NCBI RefSeq assembly: GCF_008704395.1
Contig: NZ_CP023695.1
Span: 4,836,001-4,900,000 of the forward strand
DNA length: 64,000 bases
Source of the DNA: Streptomyces alboniger
Lineage (GTDB): Bacteria; Actinomycetota; Actinomycetes; Streptomycetales; Streptomycetaceae
Direction: 5' to 3'
Translations under genes and position numbers: made by a program
Notes under the pieces: model-generated
The model's input: only the letters and a program-made list of their open reading frames with translations
The model's database searches: none
Told to the model about the DNA's origin: nothing
Shown: piece by piece, positions 29,190-59,725 of the stretch
Position numbering within the stretch: the stretch's first letter is position 1
Layout of the letters: the number at the start of each line of letters is the position of its first letter

Positions 29190-29225
29190 TCTACGCGCGT
29201 TACTGTGCGCCGAAATCAGCGCCGT
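29190..29225 (+). promoter_or_regulatory. Nucleoside operator site 1 and promoter of first BMP lipoprotein
   Basis: CTACGCGCGTTA at 29191-29202 matches the palindrome CTACGCGCGTAG in 10 of 12 positions and overlaps a -10 hexamer TACTGT (29201-29206). The block through 29224 (ending GAAATCAGCGCCG) is repeated almost exactly before the second BMP gene. Confidence 0.7.
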
Positions 29226-29260
29226 CAGCGGTGCGTTGGGGAACGTGAGGAGTACGTCCT

Positions 29261-30346
29261 ATGCGTCGTGTATCGAGACTTTCCCAAGTGGCCGTGGCGG
29301 TGGCGTCGCTCGCCCTCGCCGCTTCGGCGTGCGGCAAGACCAGCAGTGAGGCCGCGCAGGAGGAGGGCGGCAAGGAGCAGGGCTCCGGCGCCTCGTCCTC
29401 GTACAAGGGCAAGGGCATCGGTCTGGCCTACGACATCGGCGGGCAGGGCGACCAGTCCTTCAACGACGCCGCCTACGCGGGCTACACCAAGGCCCGCAAG
29501 GAGTTCAAGATCGGTGGCGTGGACATGGAGCCGGGCGACGGCGAGTCCAGCGCCGACAAGGTCCAGCGCCTCGAACAGCTCGCCAACCAGGGTTACAACC
29601 CCGTCATCGGCGTCGGCTTCGCCTACGCGCCCGCGGTGGAGGCGGCCGCGAAGAAGTTCCCGAAGACCACCTTCGGGATCATCGACGACAACACCGTGAA
29701 GGCCGACAACGTCGCCGGTATCGTGTTCCACGACGAACAGGGCTCCTATCTCGCCGGTGTCGCCGCGGCCAAGGCGAGCAAGGCCAAGCACGTCGGATTC
29801 GTGGGCGGCGTGGACATTCCGCTGATCCATAAATTCGAGGCCGGATTCGTGCAGGGCGTGAAGTCCGTCGATCCCAAGATCGAAATTGAGAAGCGGTATC
29901 TGTCGGAGAAACCGGAGGAGGGCGGATTCGCCAGTCCCGACAAGGGGCAGAACGCGGCCGGCGGCCAGATCGAGGCCGGCGCGGACGTGATCTACCACGC
30001 GGCGGGGCTCTCCGGGCAGGGCGTCATCCAGGAGGCCGGCTCCCAGAAGAAGTGGGTGATCGGCGTCGACTCCGACCAGTACAAGCACAAGGCCCTCGCC
30101 AAGTACAAGCAGTACATCCTCGGCTCGGCGCTCAAGGACATCGGCGGCGCCGTGTACGACCTGACGAAGTCGGTCGTCGAGGGCGACCCGAGGACGGGCG
30201 AGCGGCGCTACGACCTCAAGTCCGGCCGCCTCGGCTTCTCCGACTCCAACCCGAGGTACAGGGCGATGAAGGACGTCGTCGCCGCCGTCGAGAAGGCCAA
30301 GCAGGACGTCATCAGCGGCAAGGTGAAGGTCAGGACGGCGCCGTAG
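29261..30346 (+). CDS. BMP-family nucleoside-binding lipoprotein (first copy)
   Basis: 361 residues. Lipobox LAASAC places the lipidated Cys near residue 23. The mature protein is a Bmp/PnrA-type periplasmic-binding fold: GIGLAYDIGGQGDQSFNDAA, NPVIGVGFAYAPAVEAAAKK, TFGIIDDNTVKADNVAGIVF, GFVGGVDIPLIHKFEAGF, and VIGVDSDQYKH near the ligand pocket. Members bind purine and other nucleosides outside the membrane and pass them to an ABC transporter. GAGGAG lies 8 bases before ATG 29261. The transporter genes follow the second copy downstream. Compared with that copy it has a longer polar linker after the Cys. Confidence 0.93.
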   Translation: MRRVSRLSQVAVAVASLALAASACGKTSSEAAQEEGGKEQGSGASSSYKGKGIGLAYDIGGQGDQSFNDAAYAGYTKARKEFKIGGVDMEPGDGESSADKVQRLEQLANQGYNPVIGVGFAYAPAVEAAAKKFPKTTFGIIDDNTVKADNVAGIVFHDEQGSYLAGVAAAKASKAKHVGFVGGVDIPLIHKFEAGFVQGVKSVDPKIEIEKRYLSEKPEEGGFASPDKGQNAAGGQIEAGADVIYHAAGLSGQGVIQEAGSQKKWVIGVDSDQYKHKALAKYKQYILGSALKDIGGAVYDLTKSVVEGDPRTGERRYDLKSGRLGFSDSNPRYRAMKDVVAAVEKAKQDVISGKVKVRTAP

Positions 30347-30422
30347 CGCGCCGCGAGGACGTTGTACGTAGCACCTCGCGCGCACACCTCACGCCGTTTT
30401 ACGTAGTACGTACTGCGGCGCT

Positions 30423-30450
30423 TGGGCGCCCTCCACGAAGGGGGCGCCCA
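30423..30450 (+). terminator. Hairpin terminator between the two BMP genes
   Basis: TGGGCGCCC (30423-30431) pairs perfectly with GGGCGCCCA (30442-30450), loop 10 nt, 77 bp after the first BMP stop. It lies upstream of the second BMP promoter, so the two genes are probably separate transcription units. Confidence 0.7.
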
Positions 30451-30524
30451 CCGCGTGTTCGCCCCCCGGACGCCTCGTGGCCACAGGTCGATAACGGACC
30501 GGACAGAAGGGTTCTTATGTCAGG

Positions 30525-30560
30525 TCTACGCGCGTTACGCTGCGGCGAAATCAGCGCCGG
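30525..30560 (+). promoter_or_regulatory. Nucleoside operator site 2 and promoter of second BMP lipoprotein
   Basis: CTACGCGCGTTA at 30526-30537 overlaps -10 TACGCT (30536-30541), the same arrangement as site 1. The 36-nt block differs from 29190-29225 at only four or so positions. Confidence 0.7.
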
Positions 30561-30610
30561 GTGAGGCGCTCGTACCGCTTGTGCTTGCTTGACTCAAGGA
30601 GTTCGTCTCT

Positions 30611-31663
30611 ATGCGCCGGGTGTCTCGAATTGCTGTCGCGGGCGCCGCGACCGCAGCCCTCGCCGTCTCCGTCTCCGCCTGTGGTGGCACGTCCAGCGAC
30701 GCCGCCGCGAGCAAGGACGACAAGAACAAGGGCGTCGCCATCGCCTACGACGTCGGCGGCGCCGGCGACCAGTCCTTCAACGACGCCGCGACCGAGGGCA
30801 TGAAGAAGGCCGCCAAGGACTTCAAGACCGGCGAGAAGGCCGTCGAGCCGGTCGACGGCGAGTCGGACGCCGACAAGACGCAGCGCCTGACGCAGCTCGC
30901 CAAGCAGGGCTACAACCCCGTCATCGGTGTCGGCTACGCCTACGCCCCGGCGATCAAGGAGGTCGCGGCGAAGTTCCCGAAGGTCACCTTCGGCATCGTC
31001 GACGACGAGACCGTCAAGGCCGACAACGTCTCCGACCTGGTCTTCAGCGAGCAGGAGGCGTCCTACCTCGCGGGCGTCGCCGCCGCCAAGACCACCAAGA
31101 CCAAGACCGTCGGCTTCGTCGGCGGCGTGGACGTCCCCCTCATCCACAAGTTCGAGGCGGGCTACGCCCAGGGCGTCAAGGACACGAACCCCAAGGTCAA
31201 GGTCGTCAAGCAGTACCTGACGGAGAAGGCCGAGGACGGCGGCTTCACCAGCCCCGACAAGGGCAAGACCGCCGCTCAGGGCCAGATCGAGAAGGGCGCC
31301 GACGTGGTCTACCACGCGGCCGGCCTCTCCGGTCAGGGCGTCATCGAGGCCGCCGCCGCCAAGAAGGTCTGGGCGATCGGCGTCGACTCCGACCAGTACA
31401 AGCAGGACGCCCTCGCCAAGTACAAGAAGTACATCCTGACCTCGGCGACCAAGGACGTCGCGGCCTCGGTGTACAACCTGGCGAAGGCCGTCGAGGACGG
31501 TAACGCCAAGGGCGGCGTCGTCCGCGCCGACCTCAAGTCGGGCGGTGTCGCGCTCGCCAAGTCCAACCCCGAGTTCATGAAGATGAAGGACGTCCAGGCC
31601 GCGCTGGCGAAGGCCGAGGCCGGCATCAAGGACGGCAAGATCAAGGTCAAGACCACGCCGTAA
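30611..31663 (+). CDS. BMP-family nucleoside-binding lipoprotein (second copy)
   Basis: 350 residues, closely similar to the first copy throughout (GGAGDQSFNDAATEGMKK, GFVGGVDVPLIHKFEAGY, GVDSDQYKQDALAKYKKYIL). Signal peptide with lipobox SVSAC. AAGGAG lies 9-10 bases before ATG 30611. It precedes the ABC ATPase by about 200 bp with a hairpin between, a layout that lets the binding protein be made in excess over the membrane parts. It is probably the main receptor of the transporter. Whether the two copies differ in ligand cannot be read from sequence. Confidence 0.93.
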   Translation: MRRVSRIAVAGAATAALAVSVSACGGTSSDAAASKDDKNKGVAIAYDVGGAGDQSFNDAATEGMKKAAKDFKTGEKAVEPVDGESDADKTQRLTQLAKQGYNPVIGVGYAYAPAIKEVAAKFPKVTFGIVDDETVKADNVSDLVFSEQEASYLAGVAAAKTTKTKTVGFVGGVDVPLIHKFEAGYAQGVKDTNPKVKVVKQYLTEKAEDGGFTSPDKGKTAAQGQIEKGADVVYHAAGLSGQGVIEAAAAKKVWAIGVDSDQYKQDALAKYKKYILTSATKDVAASVYNLAKAVEDGNAKGGVVRADLKSGGVALAKSNPEFMKMKDVQAALAKAEAGIKDGKIKVKTTP

Positions 31664-31685
31664 GGCGGTAGTTGACCCTACGCTC

Positions 31686-31716
31686 GCCGTCAGAACCTGT
31701 GTCAGGCTCTGACGGC
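31686..31716 (+). terminator. Attenuator-like hairpin between BMP gene and ABC ATPase
   Basis: GCCGTCAGA (31686-31694) pairs with TCTGACGGC (31708-31716) across a 13-nt loop, 22 bp after the BMP stop. It probably lowers read-through into the transporter genes or protects the upstream mRNA. Confidence 0.65.
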
Positions 31717-31801
31717 AGCGTGCTGCTCGTGTGGCGGGGTGCGGGGGACGCCGGTCCACCCGCGCCCCGTTCGCGCGAGCCACTTTTCACCCGCAGGGGC
31801 A

Positions 31802-31813
31802 CTGCGCGCGTAG
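31802..31813. promoter_or_regulatory. Nucleoside operator site 3 (upstream of ABC ATPase)
   Basis: CTGCGCGCGTAG matches CTACGCGCGTAG in 11 of 12 positions. It lies 56 bp before the probable ATPase start. No clear -10 follows it, so a promoter here is uncertain. Confidence 0.5.
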
Positions 31814-31868
31814 GCGGCCCCTTTCCTTCAGGCCCTTCAGGCCCTCTGGCCCCCGAGGAGAGTGCGCC

Positions 31869-33458
31869 ATCGACGCGTCCACCAACCCTCCGCCCATCGC
31901 CGTCGAACTCGCCGGCATCACCAAGCGCTTCCCCGGAGTCGTCGCCAACCACGACATCCACCTCACCGTCCGCAAGGGCACCGTGCACGCCCTCGTCGGC
32001 GAGAACGGCGCCGGCAAGTCGACGCTGATGAAGATCCTCTACGGCATGCAGAAGCCGGACGAGGGCACCATCACCGTCGACGGTGAGCAGGTCGCCTTCT
32101 CCAGCCCCGCCGACGCCATCGTGCGCGGCATCGGCATGGTCCACCAGCACTTCATGCTCGCCGACCAGCTGACCGTCCTGGAGAACATCGTCCTCGGCAG
32201 CGAGAAACTGCACGGCATCGGCGGCGCGGCCCGCCGCGCGATCCTCGACCTCTCCGACCGCTACGGCCTCGGGGTGCGCCCCGACGCGTACGTCGAGGAC
32301 CTCGGCGTCGCCGACCGCCAGCGCGTGGAGATCCTCAAGGTCCTCTACCGCGGCGCCACCACGCTGATCCTCGACGAGCCGACGGCCGTGCTCGTGCCGC
32401 AGGAGGTCGACGCGCTCTTCGACAACCTCCGCGAGCTCAAGTCCGAGGGCCTGTCCGTCATCTTCATCTCGCACAAGCTGGGTGAGGTCCTCTCCGTGGC
32501 CGACGACATCACCGTCATCCGGCGCGGCACGACGGTCGGCACGGCGATCCCCTCCGAGACGACCCCGCGCCAGCTCGCCGAGCTGATGGTGGGCAGCGAA
32601 CTGCCGACCCCCGAGACGGCGGAGTCCACGGTCACCGACCGCCCGATGATCCAGGTGGAGGGCCTCAAGCTGCTCGCCGACGGCGAGTCGGGCCGCGCCC
32701 TGCTCGACGACATCTCCTTCACGATCCACGAGGGAGAGGTCCTCGGCATCGCGGGCGTCGAGGGCAACGGCCAGACCGAGCTGATCGACGCGCTGATCGG
32801 CCTCAAGCACGCCGACTCCGGCGTCATCCGCATGGCGGGCGAGGACATCACCGGCACGGCGACCCGCAAGCGGCGCGAGGACGGCATCGGGTACATCCCC
32901 GAGGACCGCCACCGCCACGGCCTCCTCCTGGAGTCCCCGCTGTGGGAGAACCGCATCCTCGGCCACGTCACGGAGAAGCCGAACGCACGCGGCTTCTGGC
33001 TGGACCCCAAGGGAGCCCAGGCCGACACCCGCCGCATCGTCGAGGAGTACGACGTCCGTACGCCCGGCATCGACGTGACGGCCGCCTCGCTGTCCGGCGG
33101 CAACCAGCAGAAGCTGATCGTCGGCCGCGAGATGAGCCACCACCCGCGCTTCCTGATCGCCGCCCACCCCACCCGCGGTGTGGACGTCGGCGCGCAGGCG
33201 CAGATCTGGGACCAGATCCGCGAGGCGCGCCGCGAGGGCCTGGCCGTCCTGCTGATCTCCGCCGACCTGGACGAGCTGATCGGCCTCTCCGACACCCTCC
33301 GCGTGATCTACCGCGGACGGCTCGTGGCGGACGCCGACCCGGCCACCATCACGCCGGAGGAGCTGGGCTCGGCGATGACGGGTGCCGCCTCCGGACACCT
33401 GGAACACGTTGAGTCCGGTGACGGCTCCGAGGCGTCCGAGGAGGACGAGACCCGATGA
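31869..33458 (+). CDS. Nucleoside ABC transporter, tandem ATP-binding protein
   Basis: About 529 residues with two ABC domains. Domain 1 has Walker A VGENGAGKSTLMKILYGM and Walker B TLILDEPTAVL. Its signature loop is degenerate (DLGVADRQRVEIL). Domain 2 has degenerate Walker A GVEGNGQTEL and a standard LSGGNQQKLIVGRE signature with HPTRGVD, as in RbsA/YufO (NupO) proteins. No ATG, GTG, TTG or CTG codon lies in frame between GTG 31731 and Walker A. GAGGAG at 31855-31860 points to ATC 31869 as an unusual start. The stop overlaps the next ATG (33455-33458). It energises uptake with the two permeases that follow. Confidence 0.9.
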   Translation: MDASTNPPPIAVELAGITKRFPGVVANHDIHLTVRKGTVHALVGENGAGKSTLMKILYGMQKPDEGTITVDGEQVAFSSPADAIVRGIGMVHQHFMLADQLTVLENIVLGSEKLHGIGGAARRAILDLSDRYGLGVRPDAYVEDLGVADRQRVEILKVLYRGATTLILDEPTAVLVPQEVDALFDNLRELKSEGLSVIFISHKLGEVLSVADDITVIRRGTTVGTAIPSETTPRQLAELMVGSELPTPETAESTVTDRPMIQVEGLKLLADGESGRALLDDISFTIHEGEVLGIAGVEGNGQTELIDALIGLKHADSGVIRMAGEDITGTATRKRREDGIGYIPEDRHRHGLLLESPLWENRILGHVTEKPNARGFWLDPKGAQADTRRIVEEYDVRTPGIDVTAASLSGGNQQKLIVGREMSHHPRFLIAAHPTRGVDVGAQAQIWDQIREARREGLAVLLISADLDELIGLSDTLRVIYRGRLVADADPATITPEELGSAMTGAASGHLEHVESGDGSEASEEDETR

Positions 33459-34603
33459 AGAAGTTCGACAAGGAGCGCGTGCTCCTCGCGGTGGCCGCCC
33501 CGGTCATCGCGCTGTTCGTGGCCGTGGCGCTGACCTCGGTCGTGCTGCTCGCCTCGGGCAAGAGCCCGATCGAGCCGTACACCCTGATGCTGGAGCAGAT
33601 CTCCTACTCCGACGTCCAGGTGCTGACCATCAACCAGGCAGGCATGTACTACCTGGCGGCGCTCGCGGTGGCCATCGGCTTCCGCATGAACCTGTTCAAC
33701 ATCGGCGTGGACGGCCAGTACCGCCTCGCGGCGATGGTCACCGCCGTCGTCGGCGCGCACGTCGCTCTCCCGGCCGCGCTCCAGATCCCGCTGCTCATCG
33801 TGGTCGCCATGCTCACCGGCGCCTTCTGGGCGGGCATCGCGGGTCTCCTCAAGACCACCCGCGGCGTCAGCGAGGTCGTCGCCACGATCATGCTCAACGC
33901 CATCGCGACGAGCGTCATCGGCTACCTCACCCTCACCGAGAACTTCGGTGTGCCGGTGGGCAACAACCAGACCACCGGCGTGATGAAGGAGTCCGGCTGG
34001 TTCCCCGGCATCAAGCTGGCGGGCGGCGAGGTCTACGGCTTCGTCTTCGTCGCCGTCCTCGCGGGCGTCCTGTACTGGCTGGTCCTCAACCGCACCCGGT
34101 TCGGCTTCGACCTGCGCGCCACCGGCGCCTCCGAGTCGGCCGCCGCGGCCTCCGGCGTCAACGCCAAGCGCATGGTGCTCACCGCCATGCTGATCTCCGG
34201 CGCGATGGCGGGCCTCGCGGGCCTGCCGATCCTGCTCGGCGACACCCACACCTACAGCCTCAGCTTCCCCGCGGGCCTCGGCTTCACCGCCATCGGCATC
34301 GCGCTCCTCGGCCGCAACAACCCGGTCGGCATCGCGCTGGCCGCGCTGCTGTGGGCCTTCCTCGACAAGGCCTCGCCCGCCCTGGACTACGCGACCCCGG
34401 TCGCGTACGACAAGGAGATCGCGGTGATCATGCAGGGCCTCATCGTGATCGCGGTCGTCGTCTCCTCGGAGACCGTGCGCCGCTGGGGCCTGCGCCGTCA
34501 GCAGCGGCGCGTCGGTGAGGAACTGGCCGCCGCCGCCCGGGCGAACGCCAACAACGGCAACAACGGCAACAACGACTCCGCGAAGGAGGTGGCTGCCCGA
34601 TGA
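33455..34603 (+). CDS. Nucleoside ABC transporter permease 1 (BPD_transp_2)
   Basis: 382 residues with eight to ten membrane segments. TM1 is at about 8-30 (VLLAVAAPVIALFVAVALTS). Family features include GFRMNLFNIGVDGQYRLAAM and GVSEVVATIMLNAIA, the coupling-loop region contacting the ATPase, and GFDLRATGASESAAAASGVN. It is equivalent to YufP/NupP. Start and stop overlap both neighbours by four bases, so ATPase and permeases are tightly coupled. The polar Asn/Gly-rich C-terminus (NANNGNNGNNDS) is cytoplasmic. Confidence 0.92.
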   Translation: MKKFDKERVLLAVAAPVIALFVAVALTSVVLLASGKSPIEPYTLMLEQISYSDVQVLTINQAGMYYLAALAVAIGFRMNLFNIGVDGQYRLAAMVTAVVGAHVALPAALQIPLLIVVAMLTGAFWAGIAGLLKTTRGVSEVVATIMLNAIATSVIGYLTLTENFGVPVGNNQTTGVMKESGWFPGIKLAGGEVYGFVFVAVLAGVLYWLVLNRTRFGFDLRATGASESAAAASGVNAKRMVLTAMLISGAMAGLAGLPILLGDTHTYSLSFPAGLGFTAIGIALLGRNNPVGIALAALLWAFLDKASPALDYATPVAYDKEIAVIMQGLIVIAVVVSSETVRRWGLRRQQRRVGEELAAAARANANNGNNGNNDSAKEVAAR

Positions 34604-35862
34604 GCACGGCATCCGTGGCCAAGCCCCCGGCCAAGCAGCCCGCCGCGGGCCGCCGCCGCATCTCGCTCCCCGTCCTCCTGCTCTCCATCGCCGGCGTCCT
34701 GGTGCTGATCTCGCTGGTCCGCGTCATCACCGGCGCCGACGGCATCACGTCCACCGGCCAGATGTCCACGGCGCTCAAGCTCGCCGTGCCGATCGGCCTC
34801 GCGGGCCTCGGCGGCCTGTGGGCCGAGCGCGCGGGCGTCGTCAACATCGGCCTCGAAGGCATGCTCATCCTCGGCACCTGGTTCGGTGCCTGGGCGGGCT
34901 TCCAGTGGGGCCCGTGGGTCGGTGTCCTCTTCGGCGTCCTCGGCGGCGCGCTCGGCGGCCTGCTGCACGCGATCGTGACGGTCACCTTCAACGTCAACCA
35001 CATCGTCTCCGGTGTGGCCCTGAACATCCTCGCCCTGGGCGTCACCCGCTACCTCGCGACGTTCGCCTTCGAGGGCGAGGAGGGCGGTACGTCGAAGCAG
35101 TCACCGCCCGTCGAATCTCTGGGGGACTTCTCGGTCCCCGGCCTCTCCGACTGGCTCATGGACCTCAACGGCAAGCACTGGTTCCTGGTCTCCGACCTCG
35201 CGGGCCTGATCGGCGGCCTGGTCACCGGCCTGTCGCCGCTCACCGTGGTGGCGGTCGCGATGGTGCCGCTGAGCTGGTGGGTGCTGTGGCGCACGTCGTT
35301 CGGGCTGCGGCTGCGCTCCTGCGGCGAGAACCCCGTCGCCGCCGAGTCCCTCGGCGTCAACGTCTACAAGTACAAGTACCTCGCCGTGATCATCTCGGGC
35401 GGCTTCGCCGGCCTCGGCGGCGCCTTCCTCTCGCTGGTCGCCTCCAACATCTATCTGGAGGGCCAGACGGGCGGCCGCGGTTACATCGGCCTCGCCGCGA
35501 TGATCTTCGGTAACTGGATGCCGGGCGGACTCGCGCTCGGCGCGGGCCTGTTCGGCTACACCGACAGCCTGAAGCTCCGGGGCGGCGGTACGAACGTCCA
35601 CGCGCTGCTGCTGCTCCTCGCGATCCTGCTGGTCATCGGCGCGATCTACCTCGCCTGGCGCAAGCGCTACGTGCCCGCGGCGATCACCGCGGCCGTCTCC
35701 GTGCTGATGTTCCTGTGGTACGGGTTGACGGACGAGGTGCCCAACCAGGTCGTCACCGCCACCCCGTACGTGGTGACCCTGCTGGTCCTCTCGCTCTCCG
35801 CCCAGCGGCTGCGGATGCCGAAGGCGGACGGAATGCCGTACCGAAGGGGACAAGGAAAGTGA
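34600..35862 (+). CDS. Nucleoside ABC transporter permease 2 (BPD_transp_2)
   Basis: 420 residues. The membrane segments include RISLPVLLLSIAGVLVLISL and LAVPIGLAGLGGLWAERAGV. The family motif is NIGLEGMLILGTWFGAW, and FNVNHIVSGVALNILALGV precedes the coupling loop FGLRLRSCGENPVAAESLGV. It is equivalent to YufQ/NupQ. Its stop overlaps the cytidine deaminase start (GTGA, 35859-35862), tying uptake to the first catabolic enzyme. An extra C-terminal stretch with three further membrane segments follows GGTNVHALLLLLAIL. Confidence 0.92.
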   Translation: MSTASVAKPPAKQPAAGRRRISLPVLLLSIAGVLVLISLVRVITGADGITSTGQMSTALKLAVPIGLAGLGGLWAERAGVVNIGLEGMLILGTWFGAWAGFQWGPWVGVLFGVLGGALGGLLHAIVTVTFNVNHIVSGVALNILALGVTRYLATFAFEGEEGGTSKQSPPVESLGDFSVPGLSDWLMDLNGKHWFLVSDLAGLIGGLVTGLSPLTVVAVAMVPLSWWVLWRTSFGLRLRSCGENPVAAESLGVNVYKYKYLAVIISGGFAGLGGAFLSLVASNIYLEGQTGGRGYIGLAAMIFGNWMPGGLALGAGLFGYTDSLKLRGGGTNVHALLLLLAILLVIGAIYLAWRKRYVPAAITAAVSVLMFLWYGLTDEVPNQVVTATPYVVTLLVLSLSAQRLRMPKADGMPYRRGQGK

Positions 35863-36260
35863 CGACTGCCGCCCAGGACACCGACTGGGACGCCCTGCGG
35901 GAAGCCGCGCGCGAGGCCATGTCCCGCGCGTACGCGCCCTACTCGGGGTTCCCGGTCGGCGCCGCGGCGCTGGTGGACGACGGCAGGACGGTCTCCGGCT
36001 GCAACGTCGAGAACGCCTCCTACGGCCTCGGCCTGTGCGCCGAGTGCGGCCTGGTCTCGCAGCTCCAGCTGACCGGCGGCGGCCGCCTCACCCACTTCAC
36101 GTGCGTGGACGGCAAGGGCGAGATCCTGATGCCCTGCGGCCGCTGCCGCCAGCTGCTCTACGAGTTCGGGGGCCCGGAGCTGCTCCTGGAGACGGCCTCG
36201 GGCGTGCGCACGCTCGCGGACATGCTCCCCGACGCGTTCGGCCCGCAGCACCTCAACTGA
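35859..36260 (+). CDS. cdd: Cytidine deaminase
   Basis: 133 residues from GTG 35859, preceded by an AAGG site (35853-35856). Zinc site: CAEC (Cys and catalytic Glu) in GLGLCAECGLV and PCGRC, giving the three-Cys ligand set of small tetrameric cytidine deaminases. Substrate residues lie in SGCNVENASYG. It converts cytidine and deoxycytidine to uridine and deoxyuridine in the cytoplasm. It overlaps the second permease and ends the transporter operon at a hairpin (36266-36300). The next enzyme, thymidine phosphorylase, has its own promoter. Confidence 0.95.
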   Translation: MTTAAQDTDWDALREAAREAMSRAYAPYSGFPVGAAALVDDGRTVSGCNVENASYGLGLCAECGLVSQLQLTGGGRLTHFTCVDGKGEILMPCGRCRQLLYEFGGPELLLETASGVRTLADMLPDAFGPQHLN

Positions 36261-36265
36261 CGGCA

Positions 36266-36300
36266 GGCCCCGCCCCCTTGGAGATCTTGGGTGCGGGGCC
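36266..36300 (+). terminator. Terminator of the transporter-cdd operon
   Basis: GGCCCCGC (36266-36273) pairs with GCGGGGCC (36293-36300). The 19-nt interior can add further pairs (CCC with GGG). It begins 5 bases after the cdd stop. Confidence 0.7.
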
Positions 36301-36315
36301 ACCTTCAGCTCGGGG

Positions 36316-36332
36316 CTCTATGCGCGTAGAGT
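36316..36332 (+). promoter_or_regulatory. Nucleoside operator site 4 and deoA promoter
   Basis: CTCTATGCGCGTAGAG (36316-36331) is a 16-bp palindrome with one mispair; its core differs from CTACGCGCGTAG at one base. TAGAGT (36327-36332) overlaps it as a possible -10. A run of CGTA repeats (36345-36355) follows in the leader. Confidence 0.7.
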
Positions 36333-36380
36333 CGCCTCGTATCTACGTACGTACGTCGCTGTACTGCTGGAAGGACCGCC

Positions 36381-37658
36381 ATGGACGTCATCTCCGTCAT
36401 CCGCACCAAGCGCGACCGGGGCGAGCTGACCGATGAGCAGATCGACTGGGTCATCGACGCCTACACGCGCGGCGCGGTCGCCGACGAGCAGATGTCGGCC
36501 CTCGCGATGGCGATCCTGCTCAACGGCATGAACCGCAAGGAGATCGCCCGCTGGACCGCCGCGATGATCGCGTCCGGCGAGCGCATGGACTTCTCCTCGC
36601 TCTCCCGCCCCACCGCCGACAAGCACTCCACGGGCGGGGTCGGCGACAAGATCACGCTGCCGCTCGCCCCGCTGGTCGCCGCGTGCGGCGCGGCCGTCCC
36701 GCAGCTGTCGGGCCGCGGTCTCGGCCACACCGGCGGCACCCTGGACAAGCTGGAGGCCATCCCCGGCTGGCGCGCCCTGCTCTCCAACGAGGAGATGCTG
36801 AACGTCCTGGACGGCGTCGGCTCGGTGATCTGCGCGGCGGGCGACGGCCTGGCCCCCGCCGACAAGAAGCTCTACGCCCTGCGCGATGTCACCGGCACGG
36901 TGGAGGCGATCCCGCTGATCGCCTCCTCGATCATGTCCAAGAAGATCGCCGAGGGCACGGGCTCGCTCGTGCTCGACGTGAAGGTCGGCACCGGCGCCTT
37001 CATGAAGAACATCGAGGACGCGCGTGAACTGGCCTCCACGATGGTGGAGCTGGGCACGGACAGCGGCGTCCGCACGGTGGCCCTGCTCACCGACATGTCG
37101 ACCCCGCTCGGCCTGACGGCGGGCAACGCCCTCGAAGTCCGCGAGTCGGTCGAGGTGCTGGCGGGCGGCGGCCCGGCGGATGTGGTGGAACTGACCCTGG
37201 CCCTCGCGCGCGAGATGCTGGACGCGGCCGGCCTGAAGGACGCCGACCCGGCGAAGGCGCTCGCGGACGGCTCGGCGATGGACGTATGGCGCCGGATGAT
37301 CGCGGCGCAGGGCGGAGACCCGGACGCGGAGCTGCCGGTGGCACGGGAGCGGCACGTGGTGACGGCCCCGTCGTCGGGTGTCCTGACCCGCCTCGACGCG
37401 TACGACATCGGCGTCGCGGCCTGGCGCCTGGGCGCGGGCCGCGCGCGCAAGGAGGACGTGGTCCAGGCCGGCGCGGGCGTCGAGCTGCACGCCAAGCCGG
37501 GCGACTCCGTCGAGGCGGGCGCGCCCCTGATGACCCTGCACACGGACACGCCGGAGCGGTTCGCGTACGCGCTGGAGTCGGTGGAGGGGTCGTACGACAT
37601 CGCGCCGTCGGGCACGGACTTCTCGCCGGGGGCGATCGTGCTGGACCGGATCGGCTAG
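36381..37658 (+). CDS. deoA: Thymidine (pyrimidine-nucleoside) phosphorylase
   Basis: 425 residues. N-terminal helical domain VISVIRTKRDRGELTDEQID and MSALAMAILLNGMNRKEIA; phosphate-binding loop DKHSTGGVGDKITLPLAPLV; then LSGRGLGHTGGTLDKLEAIPG, the hallmark of the family; KKLYALRDVTGTVEAIPLI carries the pyrimidine-binding region. It splits thymidine, deoxyuridine and perhaps uridine with phosphate, releasing base and (deoxy)ribose-1-P. GGAAGGA stands 6 bases before ATG 36381. It acts right after cytidine deaminase and feeds the phosphomutase and DeoC. Confidence 0.95.
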   Translation: MDVISVIRTKRDRGELTDEQIDWVIDAYTRGAVADEQMSALAMAILLNGMNRKEIARWTAAMIASGERMDFSSLSRPTADKHSTGGVGDKITLPLAPLVAACGAAVPQLSGRGLGHTGGTLDKLEAIPGWRALLSNEEMLNVLDGVGSVICAAGDGLAPADKKLYALRDVTGTVEAIPLIASSIMSKKIAEGTGSLVLDVKVGTGAFMKNIEDARELASTMVELGTDSGVRTVALLTDMSTPLGLTAGNALEVRESVEVLAGGGPADVVELTLALAREMLDAAGLKDADPAKALADGSAMDVWRRMIAAQGGDPDAELPVARERHVVTAPSSGVLTRLDAYDIGVAAWRLGAGRARKEDVVQAGAGVELHAKPGDSVEAGAPLMTLHTDTPERFAYALESVEGSYDIAPSGTDFSPGAIVLDRIG

Positions 37659-43363: not shown

Positions 43364-43385
43364 CTACGCGCGTAGGCGCTAGAGT
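43364..43385 (+). promoter_or_regulatory. Nucleoside operator site 5 and leaderless add promoter
   Basis: CTACGCGCGTAG (43364-43375) is a perfect 12-bp palindrome. A -10 hexamer TAGAGT (43380-43385) follows 4 bases later and ends 6 bases before ATG 43392, so the message probably begins at the start codon. Confidence 0.78.
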
Positions 43386-43391
43386 GCCGAA

Positions 43392-44561
43392 ATGACGAGC
43401 CAGACACACACGACCGGTCACACGGACCGTGAAACGCCCAGCGCCGAACAGATCCGCCGCGCCCCCAAGGTGCTCCTCCACGACCACCTCGACGGCGGCC
43501 TGCGCCCCGGCACGATCGTCGACCTCGCCCGCGACTGCGGCTACGAGGGACTGCCCGAGACCGACCCCGACAAGCTCGGGATCTGGTTCCGCGAGGCGGC
43601 CGACTCCGGTTCCCTGGAGCGCTATCTGGAGACCTTCGCCCACACCTGCGCGGTGATGCAGACGAAGGACGCCCTCAAGCGGGTGGCCGCCGAGTGCGCC
43701 GTAGACCTCGCCGAGGACGGCGTGGTCTACGCCGAGATCCGCTACGCCCCCGAGCAGCACCTGGAGAACGGCCTCACGCTCGAAGAGGTCGTCGAGGCGG
43801 TCAACGAAGGCTTCCGCGAGGGCGAGCGTCGCGCGAAGGCGAGCGGCCACCGCATCCGCGTCGGCGCGCTGCTCACCGCCATGCGGCACGCCGCCCGCGC
43901 GCTGGAGATCGCCGAGCTGGCCAACCGCTACCGCGATCTGGGCGTCGTCGGCTTCGACATCGCGGGCGCCGAGGCGGGCTTCCCTCCCACCCGCCACCTC
44001 GACGCCTTCGAGTTCCTCAAGCGCGAGAACAACCACTTCACGATCCACGCGGGTGAGGCCTTCGGCCTGCCGTCGATCTGGCAGGCCCTCCAGTGGTGCG
44101 GCGCCGACCGCCTCGGCCACGGCGTGCGCATCATCGACGACATCGAGATCGCCGACGACGGCACCGTCAAGCTCGGCCGCCTCGCGTCGTACGTACGGGA
44201 CAAGCGCATCCCGCTGGAGCTCTGCCCGACGTCCAACCTCCAGACGGGTGCCGCCACCTCCTACGCCGAGCACCCCATCGGCCTCCTGCGCAAGCTGCAC
44301 TTCCGAGCCACGGTGAACACCGACAACCGTCTGATGTCGGGCACCAGCATGAGCCGCGAATTCGAGCACCTGGTCGGCACGTTCGGCTACACGCTCGATG
44401 ACATGCAATGGTTCACAGTCAATGCGATGAAATCAGCGTTCATTCCTTTCGATGAACGGCTGGCCATGATCAGTGATGTGATCAAGCCCGGCTATGCCGA
44501 GCTGAAGTCCGAATGGCTGTTCCGCCAGACGGTCTCGACCAGCGCGTCTGCCGGGAGCTAG
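43392..44561 (+). CDS. add: Adenosine deaminase
   Basis: 389 residues. Zinc ligands are in [13 protein letters not shown] (HxH), [10 protein letters not shown] (His and catalytic Glu), [11 protein letters not shown] and [14 protein letters not shown], where the last Asp-Asp pair of animal enzymes reads Asp-Asn; actinobacterial enzymes share this as I recall. The reaction is adenosine or deoxyadenosine to inosine or deoxyinosine plus ammonia, feeding purine nucleoside phosphorylase. No ribosome-binding site precedes the ATG; see the leaderless promoter. A strong terminator follows at 44594-44621. Confidence 0.95.
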
Positions 44562-51233: not shown

Positions 51234-51236
51234 ACA

Positions 51237-53620: not shown

Positions 53621-53624
53621 CGGA

Positions 53625-54569
53625 TCAGTCCACCGTCACGTAGTCGGGGCCGGAGTAGCGGCCGGTGGCCAGCTTCTGGCGCTGCATCAGCAGGTCGTTG
53701 AGGAGTGACGAGGCGCCGAAGCGGAACCAGTGGTTGTCCAGCCAGTCGGGGCCCGCCGTCTCGTTCACCAGGACGAGGAACTTCACCGCGTCCTTCGTCG
53801 AGCGGATGCCGCCCGCGGGCTTCACGCCGATCTGCACGCCGGTCTGCGCGCGGAAGTCGCGGACGGCCTCCAGCATCAGCAGGGTGTTGGACGGGGTGGC
53901 GTTGACGCCGACCTTGCCGGTCGAGGTCTTGATGAAGTCGGCGCCGGCGATCATGCCGATCCAGCTGGCGCGCTTGATGTTGTCGTACGTGGACAGCTCG
54001 CCCGTCTCGAAGATGACCTTCAGGCGGGCGGTGCCGCAGGCCTCCTTCACGGCGCGGATCTGCTCGTACACCGTCATGTAGTCCCCGGAGAGGAAGGCTC
54101 CCCGGTCGATGACCATGTCGATCTCGTCGGCGCCGGCGGCCACGGCCTCGCGCACGTCGCCGAGCTTCACCTCGATCGCGGCGCGGCCCGCGGGGAAGGC
54201 GGTCGCGACGGAGGCGACCTTCACGCCGCTGCCCGCGACGGCCTCCTTGGCGGTGGCGACCATGTCCGGATAGACGCAGACGGCCGCGGTGCGCGGCGCG
54301 CCACGGTCCGTGGGGTCCGGGTTGACGGCCTTCGCGCCGAGCGCCCGGACCTTGCCCGGGGTGTCGGCGCCCTCCAGCGTCGTCAGGTCGATCATCGAGA
54401 TGGCCAGGTCGATGGCGTACGCCTTCGCCGTGGTCTTGATCGAACGGGTACCGAGCGAGGCGGCACGCGCCTCCAGGCCGACCGCGTCGACGCCGGGCAG
54501 TCCGTGGAGGAAGCGGCGGAGCGTGCTGTCGGACGCTGTCACGTCAGCGAATGCAGTGGACATGGTCAC
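53625..54569 (-). CDS. deoC: Deoxyribose-phosphate aldolase
   Basis: 314 residues from GTG 54569 (ATG 54563 two codons later). Class I aldolase TIM barrel: VCVYPDMVATAKEAVAGSG, AAGADEIDMVIDRGAFLSGD, LKVIFETGELS, the Schiff-base Lys in GADFIKTSTGKVGVNATP and the second Lys in IGVKPAGGIRSTKDA. It cleaves 2-deoxyribose-5-P into acetaldehyde and glyceraldehyde-3-P. The longer N-terminal and C-terminal arms (ending GRYSGPDYVTVD) resemble the eukaryote-type DeoC group rather than E. coli. First gene of a three-gene operon with the ALDH pair, read from a leaderless promoter next to operator site 6. Confidence 0.95.
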   Translation of the reverse strand: MTMSTAFADVTASDSTLRRFLHGLPGVDAVGLEARAASLGTRSIKTTAKAYAIDLAISMIDLTTLEGADTPGKVRALGAKAVNPDPTDRGAPRTAAVCVYPDMVATAKEAVAGSGVKVASVATAFPAGRAAIEVKLGDVREAVAAGADEIDMVIDRGAFLSGDYMTVYEQIRAVKEACGTARLKVIFETGELSTYDNIKRASWIGMIAGADFIKTSTGKVGVNATPSNTLLMLEAVRDFRAQTGVQIGVKPAGGIRSTKDAVKFLVLVNETAGPDWLDNHWFRFGASSLLNDLLMQRQKLATGRYSGPDYVTVD

Positions 54570-54575
54570 GAGGGG

Positions 54576-54594
54576 AGCATATCTACGCGCGTAG
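54576..54594 (-). promoter_or_regulatory. Nucleoside operator site 6 and leaderless deoC promoter
   Basis: CTACGCGCGTAG (54583-54594), perfect palindrome, abuts -10 TATGCT (minus strand, 54576-54581), which ends 6 bases before GTG 54569. No ribosome-binding site is present, so translation from the 5' end is likely. Confidence 0.78.
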
Positions 54595-54676
54595 CTGCTG
54601 TACAGGGGTGGGGGTCAGGGGCGGGGCCGGGGGTGGGGGCCGGGGCCCCGCGCGGGGCTTCAGGCAGAATCAGCGT

Positions 54677-55339
54677 ATGAGCGACCCTCAAAAGCACCGG
54701 GGTACGAGCGAGCCCCAGGAGCCCGCGGCGGAGCCCGCGTACAAGGACCGCACCTTCCGGTCCCCCGCCGGTATCGCCGGCGGCGTCCTGCTGCTCGCCC
54801 TGGGCGCCTGGCTCGGCATCGACGCCGTCATCCGGGGCGAGGGCCGCACCCCGTGGCTCGCGCTCGCCGGGCTGCTCGTCGCGGTGCCGCTGGTCGTCGC
54901 GTTCACCGTGCGGCCCGCCGTCTACGCCAACGACGACCGGCTGCGGATCCGCAACCCCTTCCGGACCATCACCCTGCCGTGGGCGTCCGTCGCGACCCTG
55001 CGCTCCGGCTACTCCAACGAGGCCCTCACCCGGACCGGCGCCAAGTACCAGCTCTGGGCCATCCCCGTCTCCCTGCGCGGCCGCAAGAAGGCGGCGCGCA
55101 GGCAGTCGCAGGCCGCCGCCTCCGGTGACCCGACCGGCGGCCGCCCCTTCCTCGACCCGCACGCCCCGCCCCCGCGCTCCACCGGCGACCAGTCCATGGA
55201 CGAACTGCGCGACCTCGCCGAGCAGCACGCCACCGCCGAGTCCGCGCAGGGCGAGCCCGTGGTCCGGTGGGCCTACGAGATCCTCGCGCCCTGCGCCGCG
55301 GGGGCCCTCCTGCTCGCGGTGCTGCTCGCGGTGACCTGA
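54677..55339 (+). CDS. PH-domain (bPH) membrane protein
   Basis: 220 residues. Two membrane segments near the N-terminus (SPAGIAGGVLLLALGAWLGI and WLALAGLLVAVPLVVAFTV) and one at the C-terminus (EILAPCAAGALLLAVLLAV). Between them is a bacterial PH-like domain: VYANDDRLRIRNPFRTITLP, WASVATLRSGYSNEALTRTG and KYQLWAIPVSLRGRKKAARR. Function unknown. Divergent from deoC across about 107 bp, which includes operator site 6; whether the site also affects this gene is unclear. In-frame codons upstream to 54551 are open. Confidence 0.8.
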   Translation: MSDPQKHRGTSEPQEPAAEPAYKDRTFRSPAGIAGGVLLLALGAWLGIDAVIRGEGRTPWLALAGLLVAVPLVVAFTVRPAVYANDDRLRIRNPFRTITLPWASVATLRSGYSNEALTRTGAKYQLWAIPVSLRGRKKAARRQSQAAASGDPTGGRPFLDPHAPPPRSTGDQSMDELRDLAEQHATAESAQGEPVVRWAYEILAPCAAGALLLAVLLAVT

Positions 55340-55369
55340 CCGCCTGACCTGACCTGAGGACGGCCCGGC

Positions 55370-56575: not shown

Positions 56576-56738
56576 TGCGGCGGCTCCCGGAACGTACGTG
56601 ATCGTGCGCTACCGGTCGAACCTTCCTGGGGGACCGGCAGCACACCGTGCCGCTGCGGCAGCCGCAGGAGTGGAATCACTCGGACGGGTGGCCTCTGGGT
56701 GGGGCCACCCGTCCGCCACCCGTCTGAGGGCGGAGGGC

Positions 56739-58382
56739 TCAGATGCCCGCGGCCGCCGAGAGATCGCGCTTGATCTCGGCGAGGAGCTGCGCCGCCCGCG
56801 CGCGGGCCGCCGGGAGTTCCGCCTTCGAGGCCAGCGGGACGACCACTTCGAGGTAGCACTTGAGCTTCGGCTCCGTGCCGCTCGGGCGCACGATGACGCG
56901 GGCGCCGTCGAGCGTGTAACGCAGGCCGTCGGTGGGCGGCAGCGTGTCCGTGCCCCGCGTCAGGTCCTCCGCCAGCGTCACGGGCAGGCCCGCGAGTTCC
57001 GCCGGGGGCTGCTCGCGCAGGCGGCGCATGGCGTCCGCGATCAGGGACAGGTCCTCCACGCGGACCGACAGCTGGTCGGTGGCGTGCAGGCCGTGCTCCA
57101 GGGCAAGGTCGTCCAGGAGGTCGAGGAAGGTGCGGCCCTGCTCCTTCAGCTCGGAGGCCAGCTCCGTGAGGACGAGCGCGGCGGTGATGCCGTCCTTGTC
57201 GCGTACGCCCTCGGGGTCCACGCAGTAGCCGAGCGCCTCCTCGTAGCCGTAGCGCAGGCCGTCGACGCGGGCGATCCACTTGAAGCCCGTCAGCGTCTCC
57301 TCGTACGGAAGACCCGCCTTCTCGGCGATTCGGCCGAGGAGGGAGGAGGAGACGATCGACTCGGCGAAGGTGCCCCGTGCTCCGCGCTTGACGAGGTGCG
57401 CGGCGAGCAGCGCCCCCACCTCGTCGCCCCGGAGCATCCGCCAGTCGGCGCCGTCCTTGACCGCGGCGGCGCAGCGGTCCGCGTCCGGGTCGTTGGCGAT
57501 GATCAGGTCGGGGGCGGGGCTGGTGCGGGCCGCGGTCGCGAAGGCCAGGTCCATCGCGCCCGGCTCCTCCGGGTTCGGGAACGCGACCGTCGGGAAGTCC
57601 GGGTCCGGCTCGGCCTGCTCGGCGACGAGCGTGGGGGCGGGAAAACCGGCGCGCTCGAAGGCCGCGAGGAGGGTGTCCTTGCCGACGCCGTGCATGGCCG
57701 TGTAGACGGCGCGCGCGGTACGGGGGGACTCCGGGGCCAGGACGGCGTCCGTGCGGGCCAGGTAGGCCTCCAGGACGTCGTCGCCGAGGATCTCCCAGCC
57801 GCTCTCGGGGCGGGGGACGTCGTGCAGGCTCGCGATCGCGTCGATCTCGGCGGCGATCTCCGCATCGGCGGGCGGCACGATCTGGGAGCCGTCGCCGAGG
57901 TAGACCTTGTAGCCGTTGTCGCGCGGGGGGTTGTGGCTCGCCGTGACCTCCACGCCCGCCACCGCGCCGAGGTGCCGTATGGCGAAGGCGAGGACGGGGG
58001 TCGGCAGGGGGCGGGGGAGTACGGCCGCGCGGAGCCCGGCGCCGGTCATCACGGCCGCGGTGTCGCGGGCGAAGTCGGCGGACTTGTGGCGGGCGTCGTA
58101 ACCGATGACGACGAGGCCGTCGGTCCGGCCCTTGCCCTTGAGGTACGCGGCGAGTCCGGCGGCTGCGCGGATGACCACGGAGCGGTTCATGCGCATGGGG
58201 CCCGCGCCCAGCTCGCCGCGGAGTCCGGCGGTGCCGAACTGGAGCGTGCCGGCGAAACGGGCGGTCAGCTCGGCGGTGTCCTCGGCGTCGACGAGCTTGG
58301 CCAGCTCTTCGCGGGTCTCGGGGTCCGGGTCCTCGGCCAGCCAGGCCTGGGCTCGCGCGATGAGTTCGGAGTTGTCCTGCAC
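56739..58382 (-). CDS. Phospho-sugar mutase (PGM/PMM family; possible phosphopentomutase)
   Basis: 547 residues from GTG 58382. Family features in order: FGTAGLRGELGAGPMRMNRS; active-site Ser in VEVTASHNPPRDNGYKVYLG; magnesium loop IANDPDADRCAAAV; sugar-specificity loop FKWIARV with GYCVDPEGVRDKDG; phosphate-binding end IVRPSGTEPKLKCYLEV. The domain order is complete. By family it moves phosphate between C1 and C6 of hexoses, and some members act on pentoses. With purine and pyrimidine nucleoside phosphorylases and DeoC nearby, and no DeoB seen, it may convert (deoxy)ribose-1-P to the 5-P. No operator site precedes it. Confidence 0.92.
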   Translation of the reverse strand: MQDNSELIARAQAWLAEDPDPETREELAKLVDAEDTAELTARFAGTLQFGTAGLRGELGAGPMRMNRSVVIRAAAGLAAYLKGKGRTDGLVVIGYDARHKSADFARDTAAVMTGAGLRAAVLPRPLPTPVLAFAIRHLGAVAGVEVTASHNPPRDNGYKVYLGDGSQIVPPADAEIAAEIDAIASLHDVPRPESGWEILGDDVLEAYLARTDAVLAPESPRTARAVYTAMHGVGKDTLLAAFERAGFPAPTLVAEQAEPDPDFPTVAFPNPEEPGAMDLAFATAARTSPAPDLIIANDPDADRCAAAVKDGADWRMLRGDEVGALLAAHLVKRGARGTFAESIVSSSLLGRIAEKAGLPYEETLTGFKWIARVDGLRYGYEEALGYCVDPEGVRDKDGITAALVLTELASELKEQGRTFLDLLDDLALEHGLHATDQLSVRVEDLSLIADAMRRLREQPPAELAGLPVTLAEDLTRGTDTLPPTDGLRYTLDGARVIVRPSGTEPKLKCYLEVVVPLASKAELPAARARAAQLLAEIKRDLSAAAGI

Positions 58383-58863
58383 GGGGTCGTCAGCCTCTCG
58401 TTGCGGCGTCGCTTGAGCGGGGTCTGGGGTGGTTGTACCCCGCCGGGTATGTCTACCCGGTTGGGTTTTGGGGTGGGGCCGGGGCCGGGGTGGGCCGGGG
58501 GCTGTGCCCCCTGGGTGTGCCTGCCCGGTTCGTTTTGGGGCGGGGCCGCGCCGGTATGTCCGTCCTCGCCATCTCGGCGCGGGCGGCCTTCCGCTGTTGC
58601 CTGGGGCGGCAGGCAACGTGCTCCGGGCGGACAAACCGGCACGTCCCTCGCGTCTCGATCAGGGGTGCGGGCCGGTGGGCCCCCACCCCACCCCTCGGTG
58701 CGAGGTAAACGGGCCCCGCTCCGGCCCCCTACCCCACCCATCCGGTACGGGGTAAACGGGTGGGTGGGGGAGCCCGGCGCGGAGCGCCGGAGACCGAGCC
58801 GCAGCGCGGGGCGCGGAGACGAGAGACGGGGAAGCCGGTCCGAGACGCCCCCGTCAGAGCCCG
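58383..58863. repeat. 480-bp non-coding region with decayed GC-rich repeats
   Basis: No convincing gene. CCCGGTTGGGTTTTGGGG (from 58457) and CCCGGTTCGTTTTGGGGC (from 58525) are diverged copies of one unit; each is followed by a CGGGGCC-type run. Near the right end, GGTAAACGGG recurs at 58707-58716 and 58751-58760 within CCCCACCC-rich surroundings. It separates the phosphomutase from the purine phosphorylase and presumably carries the mutase promoter. Confidence 0.6.
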
Positions 58864-59688
58864 TCAGATGCGGTTGAGGACCTTGCCGAGCAGCTCGCCC
58901 ATCCGCGTGGCGCTGTCGCGGCCCGCCTGGAGGACTTCCTCGTGGTTCAGCGGCTCGCCCGTCATACCCGCGGCCAGGTTCGTGACCAGCGAGATGCCCA
59001 GCACCTCCGCGCCCGCCTCGCGCGCGGCGATGGCTTCGAGGACCGTGGACATGCCGACCAGGTCCGCGCCGATCGTGCGGGCCATGCGGATCTCCGCCGG
59101 CGTCTCGTAGTGCGGGCCGGGGAACTGTGCGTAGACGCCCTCCTCCAGGGAGGGGTCGATCTCCTTGCACAGGGCGCGCAGGCGCGGCGAGTACAGGTCC
59201 GTCAGGTCCACGAAGTTCGCGCCGACGATCGGGGACGTCGCCGTGAGGTTCAGGTGGTCGCTGATCAGCACCGGCTGCCCGGGACGCATGCCCTCGCGCA
59301 GGCCACCGCAGCCGTTGGTCAGCACGATCGTCTTGCAGCCGGCGGCCACGGCGGTGCGGACGCCGTGCGAGACGGCGGCCACGCCACGGCCCTCGTAGTA
59401 GTGGGTGCGGCCCAGGAAGACCAGCACGCGCTTGTCGCCGATCTTGAAGGACCGGATACGGCCGCCGTGCCCCTCGACCGCGGGCGGCGGGAAGCCGGGC
59501 AGCTCGGTGACGGCGAAGTCCGCCTCGGGCTCGCCCAGCGCGTCGACGGCCGGCGCCCAGCCGGAGCCCATCACGAGGGCGACGTCGTGGGTCTCGGCGC
59601 CCGTCAGCTCACGCAGGCGCGCGGCGGCGGCGTCGGCGGCGGCGTACGGGTCGCCCTGGATGTCGTCCGGAATAACTGAAGCGTTCAC
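58864..59688 (-). CDS. Purine-nucleoside phosphorylase
   Basis: 274 residues from GTG 59688. Trimeric-type [23 protein letters not shown] (phosphate loop), [60 protein letters not shown], and [20 protein letters not shown] with [12 protein letters not shown], where Glu and Asn bind 6-oxopurines. It phosphorolyses inosine, guanosine and their deoxy forms, following adenosine deaminase. It has a leaderless promoter and an operator site upstream. In M. tuberculosis the equivalent gene sits beside pmmB, as here. Confidence 0.95.
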
Positions 59689-59695
59689 GCCGACG

Positions 59696-59725
59696 AGGGT
59701 AGCGGGTTACGGCCTACGCGCGTAG
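59696..59725 (-). promoter_or_regulatory. Nucleoside operator site 7 and leaderless PNP promoter
   Basis: CTACGCGCGTAG at 59714-59725 lies 12 bp upstream of -10 TACCCT (minus strand, 59696-59701), which ends 7 bases before GTG 59688. The operator covers the spacer towards the -35 position. Confidence 0.75.

Follow-up and report, generated by a model that had tools for sequence, protein, structure and literature searches.

A conserved palindrome at nucleoside and purine promoters of Streptomyces and its candidate LacI-family regulator encoded next to glnR

A 64,000-nucleotide stretch of the Streptomyces alboniger genome (NZ_CP023695.1, positions 4,836,001 to 4,900,000; hereafter the window) carries genes for nucleoside uptake and breakdown that are preceded by copies of one short palindrome. 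We asked which genes share this element and which protein would recognise it. The same operator stands at the same promoters in related genomes, as expected of a single co-regulated regulon. Judged from sequence comparison, TCTACnCGnGTAGA is most likely the operator of a conserved Streptomycetaceae repressor of the LacI family whose gene lies immediately behind glnR; that this protein binds the sites, represses and responds to an effector is what we infer from these comparisons.

A palindrome at nucleoside and purine promoters

A preliminary description of the window had reported seven copies of the palindrome, three of them perfect, and each lies where it was placed (Table 1), with 2, 2, 1, 1, 0, 0 and 0 mismatches in order of position. 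The 7.96-Mb genome has no perfect copies other than those at 43364, 54583 and 59714, before add, deoC and PNP; the reversed pattern, our control of equal composition, is absent from it. None of 200 first-order Markov shuffles of the window produced a perfect copy; at zero mismatches, 3 sites were observed (shuffle mean 0, maximum 0), and at one mismatch 2 (mean 0.235, maximum 2). At up to three mismatches the window showed no enrichment (43 matches, shuffle mean 56.7), and at up to one mismatch the genome contains 23 sites versus 28 for the control. Because of this last comparison, we rejected the number of one-mismatch sites as evidence, and meaning at that level has to come from position and conservation. 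When 15 of the 28 control sites were inspected, 10 lay inside predicted genes and two of the remaining five had predicted genes within 400 bp; among the three N-termini displayed near control sites, none was recognised by eye as belonging to a nucleotide gene. Two extra sites with two mismatches in the window, one within an open reading frame (ORF) at 2662 and the other at 63900, 86 bp upstream of a TetR-type gene, look like chance occurrences.

Perfect copies are present in all 61 Streptomyces genomes, the window's own included, with 2–6 copies each and 229 in total versus 37 for the control. At the level of the family Streptomycetaceae, 60 of 61 genomes have at least one perfect copy, the exception being G069, and in the rest of the class such copies are rare (10 of 224 genomes outside the family). 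Conservation and placement within the genus had been proposed as a check of the regulon, and the outcome is favourable: the same promoters carry the operator across Streptomyces and the family. The counts for add, deoC, PNP and the ABC genes come from cluster loci of relatives that were chosen for holding perfect sites, with gene starts from a simple ORF caller based on GC content at third codon positions (GC3), which makes these starts approximate. In such loci a perfect site precedes the ABC ATPase gene in three of three cases, and the asymmetric variant found before the BMP lipoprotein genes, CTACGCGCGTTA, is likewise kept in three of three; the deoA site is the least conserved of the seven (two of five relatives). 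Among neighbouring genes used as controls, no site with 0–3 mismatches was found before those for cytidine deaminase (0/6), a permease (0/4) and the DeoR-type protein (0/6), and nothing better than three mismatches before those for the mutase (8 loci), lpd (7) and an M20 peptidase (3). The bPH-domain gene that is divergent from deoC has the site in four of seven relatives. Of note, several Streptomyces encode a second adenosine deaminase paralogue (62–63% identical in L053–L055), for which a perfect palindrome lies over the first codons (L034, L053, L054, L055, L119, L127).

Six of the seven sites had been described as sitting at or near a −10 hexamer, and this was borne out, the site of the ATPase operon being the one with no clear −10 element. 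At the two BMP genes and deoA, a TANNNT hexamer (TACTGT, TACGCT and TAGAGT, respectively) overlaps the operator end, so that the −10 element takes in the right end of the operator, which would account for the TTA variant. At add, deoC and PNP of the window, TANNNT follows the site after 4, 1 and 12 nt, and the start codon lies 6–7 nt further. These operator-to-hexamer distances are near-constant in the orthologues, with rare one-base exceptions, and the start codon comes 5–7 nt after the hexamer, as read from 60 of the 81 matches; the spacing suggests an arrangement for leaderless transcripts. As an operator-bound protein would cover the −10/−35 region, repression would be the simplest mode of action. 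The two BMP promoters also have GAAATCAGCGCCG in common just 3' of the operator (window positions 29203-29225 and 30538-30560), a shared block that may be another element or a transcript start.

The preliminary description had interpreted the palindrome as the mark of one dispersed nucleoside regulon. The idea of one regulon with one operator holds, given the conservation at the same promoters and the position at or beside −10 elements, and its restriction to nucleosides does not, as purS, a 5'-nucleotidase-like gene, an NCS2 permease gene and a hydrolase gene also carry the site. Among the 18 one-mismatch sites outside the window, six precede nucleotide-related genes, namely purS and those for the NCS2 permease, an NCS1 permease, a carbon-nitrogen hydrolase, a nicotinamidase-like protein that scores below the curated cut-off and the 5'-nucleotidase-like protein, which appears to have a signal peptide; a seventh site precedes rpoB. 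When three further genomes with 59 sites at 0–1 mismatch were compared, the sites of purS, the 5'-nucleotidase-like gene, the NCS2 permease gene and the hydrolase gene recurred in four of four genomes each (in G013 the hydrolase was recognised from its sequence). The NCS1 permease gene, with a site in two of the four, and the nicotinamidase-like gene (L007), which has a 0–1 mismatch site only in the window's genome, were rejected as shared targets. Most uniform is purS, present in 61 of 61 genomes: in each of the 30 upstream regions inspected we found a site with exactly one mismatch, starting 65–116 bp before the inferred start, in the form of CTACCCGCGTAG, CTATGCGCGTAG or, in either orientation, CTACGCGAGTAG. 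Mononucleotide-shuffled purS segments contained such a site at 0–1 mismatch in 0 of 1200 cases and at two mismatches in 12 of 1200. Genome G118 has a perfect copy before purS. Exact matches to the degenerate pattern CTACNCGNGTAG in the four genomes amount to 20 sites, distributed over add (4), deoC (4), PNP (4), purS (4), the ABC operon (3) and one further position, 153 bp upstream of a gene for a sugar-type (Peripla_BP_4) binding protein.

Further copies were seen near related genes. Two genomes of g14, a different genus in the family, have a perfect palindrome before a PurN-like formyltransferase gene (L091, L092), which in L091 is followed by a gene that appears purH-like on inspection. By inspection as well, L110 has a perfect copy before a 5'-nucleotidase-like gene. 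At rpoB, the one-mismatch copy GTACGCGCGTAG is kept just upstream of the gene in four of four genomes (L014, L401, L421, L410). It sits within a conserved block of more than 50 bp, and for this reason we did not accept rpoB as a firm target.

The candidate regulator

Two kinds of regulator had been put forward for the sites, the DeoR-type protein encoded at 62018 and a LacI- or GntR-type protein encoded outside the window. The LacI candidate fits best, given the LacI-type operator and the matching operators in the promoters of LacI relatives that share its VVSY recognition helix; the DeoR-type protein is disfavoured by the same operator type and by its own promoter, which lacks the site in six of six relatives. 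The halves of the operator, TCTACGC and GCGTAGA, form an even palindrome with a central CG, the signature seen in 1173 of 1303 LacI motifs (PMC4052901, cited like all papers here from excerpts). In the window's genome (G000), the candidate is L169, whose gene begins 23 bp beyond the end of a gene with a GlnR_1st match. L169 is placed in the LacI family by its N-terminal LacI helix-turn-helix (PF00356, 52.4 bits against a cut-off of 27) and its effector domain resembling periplasmic binding proteins (PF13377, 116.9 bits against 26.5), and it has an orthologue in all 61 family genomes. According to the code for the LacI helix-turn-helix motif, residue 20 pairs with nucleotide (NT) −6 and residues 15/16 with NT−5/−4, Arg20 going with G at NT−6 (PMC2978694). 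The operator studied here has C at NT−6 and T and A at NT−5/−4. Reading the helices of all 16 LacI genes of the genome, we found Tyr20 only in L169 (TA-VVSY) and in L161 (RA-TVSY). Moreover, a half operator merged with the −10 element, CGCGTAGACT, precedes the L169 start in 45 of 47 loci, which are mostly best-scoring orthologues, with one genome counted twice.

We also compared helix and operator in VVSY relatives, using 80 loci that were collected from named genomes with patterns including the VVSY helix. For the 74 helices read, the 300 bp in front of each LacI gene were scored for every one of the 256 possible half-sites. For P/E-x-VVSY proteins, CAACnCGnGTTG was exact in 16 of 20 loci and ranked first of 256, the next best half-site reaching 6 loci, none exact. 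For V/A-A-VVSY proteins, CTAC also ranked first of 256, with three of 11 loci, two of them exact. The best single case for a fit of helix and operator is the VA-VVSY protein of Kibdelosporangium philippinense (L310), which has a perfect TCTACGCGCGTAGA just upstream of its LacI gene and a gene for a cytosine/purine permease (Transp_cyt_pur) downstream. In G189 and G273, TCTACACGTGTTGA lies between a VA-VVSY LacI gene and a divergent nucleoside hydrolase gene (by Pfam for the G189 gene), and three further relatives that were examined adjoin PfkB kinase genes or a weak nucleoside hydrolase match. G202 alone among genomes outside the family has three perfect sites; its picture is ambiguous, and we did not count it as support. 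Here, a homologue of L169 (46%, TA-VVSY) is encoded between two of the sites. The first site (G202:C1:2087061, L228:5062), about 15 kb from this LacI gene, is intergenic and upstream of PfkB, Radical_SAM, IMPDH and phosphoribosyltransferase-domain genes, a set that resembles 7-deazapurine nucleoside pathways and may be a cluster of that type, so that this site is not clearly unrelated to the regulon. The second falls within an ORF that matches no known family, next to a transposase gene, and the third in a repeat rich in CG, close to a copy of the same transposase gene.

Several observations weigh against the assignment to L169. Its own promoter has only the half site, two to three mismatches away from the palindrome; CGCGTAGACT is absent from both deep-branching genomes read, G064 and G069, and could be a −10 element with no operator function. 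G069 has an L169 orthologue and no perfect site (imperfect sites were not sought). Outside the family, proteins of the TA-VVSY class, that of L169 itself, have CTAC in 2 of 25 local promoters (rank 10 of 256), and within Streptomycetaceae the strict count is 1 of 18 (rank 38); the VVSY class thus supports the recognition code, and the exact TA class tests it weakly. A second LacI protein with Tyr20 and Ala16 (RA-TVSY) exists in the window's genome, and a similar one in G272. As for the sites, 11 of the 18 one-mismatch copies outside the window lie at neither nucleotide-related genes nor rpoB, five of them inside genes, and CTACNCGNGTAG is no commoner than its control (20 versus 17), so that the evidence lies in the positions and not in the number. 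Lastly, conservation cannot separate L169 from the DeoR-type protein, each being present in 61 of 61 family genomes. Phylogenetic profiling was dropped as a means of choosing between them for this reason, and only the operator evidence sets them apart.

How, then, do the alternatives compare? The DeoR-type protein (62018-62989) is encoded within 3 kb of PNP and close to deoC, has HTH_DeoR and DeoRC sensor domains, probably corresponds to SCO4920 of S. coelicolor and is as widely conserved as L169, and it would act as a repressor sensing deoxyribose-5-phosphate or a related sugar phosphate. Its own promoter, however, had no site at 0–3 mismatches in any of six relatives (autoregulation is common, if not obligatory), the operator is LacI-like and recurs as the same half-site in the promoters of LacI proteins elsewhere, and a sensor of deoxyribose phosphate is not obviously suited to purS, the 5'-nucleotidase or nucleobase permeases. 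We consider this regulator unlikely. A slightly better chance, albeit still a small one, goes to another protein binding the operators, for example the RA-TVSY protein L161 (G000:C1:7340620) or a member of the TetR or GntR families. L161 has Tyr20 and Ala16 in common with L169, G272 encodes the similar L475, and the screen for regulators was confined to the LacI family. On the other hand, in G008 and G043, which have perfect sites, 13 of 16 and 18 of 21 helices were read and only the L169 orthologue proved to have Tyr20/Ala16, and the central CG and the C-T-A-C half-site match the VVSY class.

It is highly improbable that the palindrome is a promoter or DNA-structure element, or a product of chance, instead of a protein operator. 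CG-rich palindromes are common in DNA of 72% GC, and in some promoters the right half (GTAG or TTA) overlaps the −10 hexamer. Yet the palindrome stays unchanged while its distance to the −10 element varies between add, deoC and PNP, its 229 copies in 61 genomes contrast with the 37 of the composition-matched control, and its placement is specific to gene function. If L169 is the regulator, its dimer would sit across the −10/−35 region of nucleoside and purine genes and would hold back RNA polymerase until an effector related to purines or nucleosides alters the dimer's affinity. The regulon would then join nucleoside import, deamination, phosphorolysis and deoxyribose cleavage with the 5'-nucleotidase, nucleobase permeases and the purS operon.

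Related regulators and biological meaning

By analogy, we propose that L169 may work like a LacI regulator of the PurR/CytR type. Escherichia coli PurR likewise belongs to the LacI family, uses an even palindromic operator with a central CG and controls purine synthesis genes, and it aligns with L169 over nearly the full length at about 30% identity. The half-sites differ, PurR having G at NT−6 where the half-site here is C-T-A-C, and, unlike in the E. coli PurR regulon, catabolism and uptake dominate in the present gene set. L169 has a four-residue loop insertion relative to PurR and a His in place of Arg196, which is among the compared PurR residues with a role in the effector pocket; comparing effector residues of L169 with those of PurR, RbsR and CytR gave no effector assignment. 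The regulon of E. coli CytR includes deo and cdd and is not known to include a purine-synthesis operon. CytR differs from L169 in its helix (STATVSR versus STAVVSY), and the operator here is a single central-CG palindrome. The target functions, nucleoside transport and utilisation, are shared (PMC3454398). L169 scores below the curated equivalog cut-offs for PurR (NF007979, 182.9 versus 501 bits), CytR (NF008269, 172.7 versus 436 bits) and RbsR (NF047341, 189.4 versus 382 bits; NF007743, 181.8 versus 531 bits), and it is therefore not filed as any of them. Bacillus PurR, which joins purine synthesis with transport, is not a LacI-family protein and has phosphoribosyl pyrophosphate (PRPP) as ligand. 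Binding of (p)ppGpp to this protein as an anti-inducer has been reported (PMC8789054). The excerpted comparative survey of the LacI family reports PurR orthologues from no more than three orders, all gammaproteobacterial, and gives five LacI groups for nucleosides, with AdeR, HpxR and UriR named (PMC4052901).

Closer in taxonomy are GvmR, GvmR2 and ScnR1 from the guvermectin system of Streptomyces caniferus, which are Streptomyces LacI regulators as well, GvmR and ScnR1 having 14-bp central-CG palindromes (PMC12292694). GvmR differs in its motif, RTCATWCGYATGAY, and in its target, a cluster for one purine nucleoside product. The most likely orthologue of L169 among described proteins is SCO4158, an assignment made by synteny, from its LacI family and its place directly downstream of the GlnR gene. 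The sco4158 gene adjoins glnR and was suggested to encode a possible regulator of glnR (PMC9739823), and SCO4158 appears in a table of ArgR binding sequences (PMC5839063); the excerpts of these two papers mention no nucleoside or purine role for it.

Among the literature matches listed for locus tags and topics, we found no description of the regulon; RegPrecise and the supplement of PMC4052901 were outside this scope, so an earlier in-silico prediction is possible. Judged by title and the beginning of the abstract, none of the papers containing TACGCGCGTA deals with Streptomyces regulation. In the excerpts of a review on purines and antibiotics, XdhR is the only regulator of a purine gene, and the word PurR is absent from that paper (PMC6627660). 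With a family-wide operator and a named candidate, it becomes possible to test directly in S. coelicolor how purine synthesis and salvage are controlled at the transcriptional level; should the assignment be true, the VVSY helix class would be added to the LacI recognition code. In Streptomyces, development and antibiotic production are guided by purine pools (GTP, ppGpp, c-di-GMP). As a tentative and rather doubtful extension, one glnR-linked LacI regulator might let a single purine-related signal govern nucleoside scavenging, the uptake of nucleobases and purSQL synthesis, with rpoB as a possible further target. The place of this regulator behind glnR would then couple purine supply to nitrogen status and, via GTP/ppGpp, to development and the onset of antibiotic production.

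Genes of the window and minor observations

Pfam matches agree with the gene identities that had been read from the window, namely two BMP lipoproteins, an ABC ATPase, a pyrimidine nucleoside phosphorylase, adenosine deaminase, a PNP-family phosphorylase and the DeoC aldolase (Table 1). Two genes of the aldehyde dehydrogenase family (PF00171) come after deoC on the same strand.

Table 1. Putative operators, promoter elements and genes, in window coordinates except for L169.
Feature	Position	Strand	Remarks
L169, LacI-family protein	G000:C1:3698446-3699465		TA-VVSY helix; SCO4158-type by synteny
Operator before BMP lipoprotein 1	29191..29202	+	CTACGCGCGTTA; 2 mismatches; final TA starts TACTGT −10; identical variant upstream of BMP genes in 3/3 relatives' loci
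BMP/PnrA-type nucleoside-binding lipoprotein 1	29261..30346	+	PF02608, E 3.8e-57
Operator before BMP lipoprotein 2	30526..30537	+	CTACGCGCGTTA; 2 mismatches; TACGCT −10 overlaps
BMP/PnrA-type nucleoside-binding lipoprotein 2	30611..31663	+	PF02608, E 1.1e-56
ABC ATPase, ORF as listed	31731..33458	+	PF00005; true start uncertain, relatives' ORF starts after operator
Operator before nucleoside ABC ATPase operon	31802..31813	+	CTGCGCGCGTAG; 1 mismatch; perfect in several relatives
ABC permease 1	33455..34603	+	PF02653
ABC permease 2	34600..35862	+	PF02653
Cytidine deaminase	35715..36260	+	PF00383; listed ORF overlaps permease 2; no operator of its own, site in 0/6 relatives
Operator before deoA	36318..36329	+	CTATGCGCGTAG; 1 mismatch; TAG starts TAGAGT −10; in 2/5 relatives
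deoA-type pyrimidine nucleoside phosphorylase	36381..37658	+	PF00591/PF07831
Operator before add	43364..43375	+	0 mismatches; perfect in 6/6 relatives' loci
−10 element of add, TAGAGT	43380..43385	+	6 nt before ATG; same spacing in orthologues shown; leaderless arrangement suggested
add, adenosine deaminase	43392..44561	+	PF00962, E 5.1e-103
deoC, deoxyribose-phosphate aldolase	53625..54569	-	PF01791
−10 element of deoC, TATGCT	54576..54581	-	6 nt before GTG
Operator before deoC	54583..54594	-	0 mismatches; perfect in 8/8 relatives' loci
Phosphohexomutase-family gene	56739..58634	-	downstream of PNP, same strand; all matches below curated cut-offs; no operator of its own, site at 0-2 mismatches in 0/8 relatives
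PNP-family nucleoside phosphorylase	58864..59688	-	PF01048, E 4.4e-46
−10 element of PNP, TACCCT	59696..59701	-	7 nt before GTG
Operator before PNP	59714..59725	-	0 mismatches; perfect in 7/8 relatives' loci, eighth upstream region cut by locus end

Outside the window, some genes with sites belong to other functional classes. A gene for a HAD-IIB-type phosphatase has a perfect palindrome just before its start (L046, L109), followed in L046 by a TAGCCT −10 element with leaderless spacing. L087 and L100, from two genomes, contain genes for similar, apparently exported proteins, each with a perfect site ahead of its start; L100 has a second near-copy next to it, and the L100 protein has only a sub-threshold ABC_transp_aux match in Pfam. 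By inspection, L390 (G013:C1:2383855-2383880) comprises two adjacent one-mismatch sites before a gene for an apparently exported metallophosphatase-like protein, possibly a second extracellular nucleotidase, and in two genomes (L017, L422) CTACGCACGTAG is found between a lysozyme-like gene and one for a MarR-like regulator.

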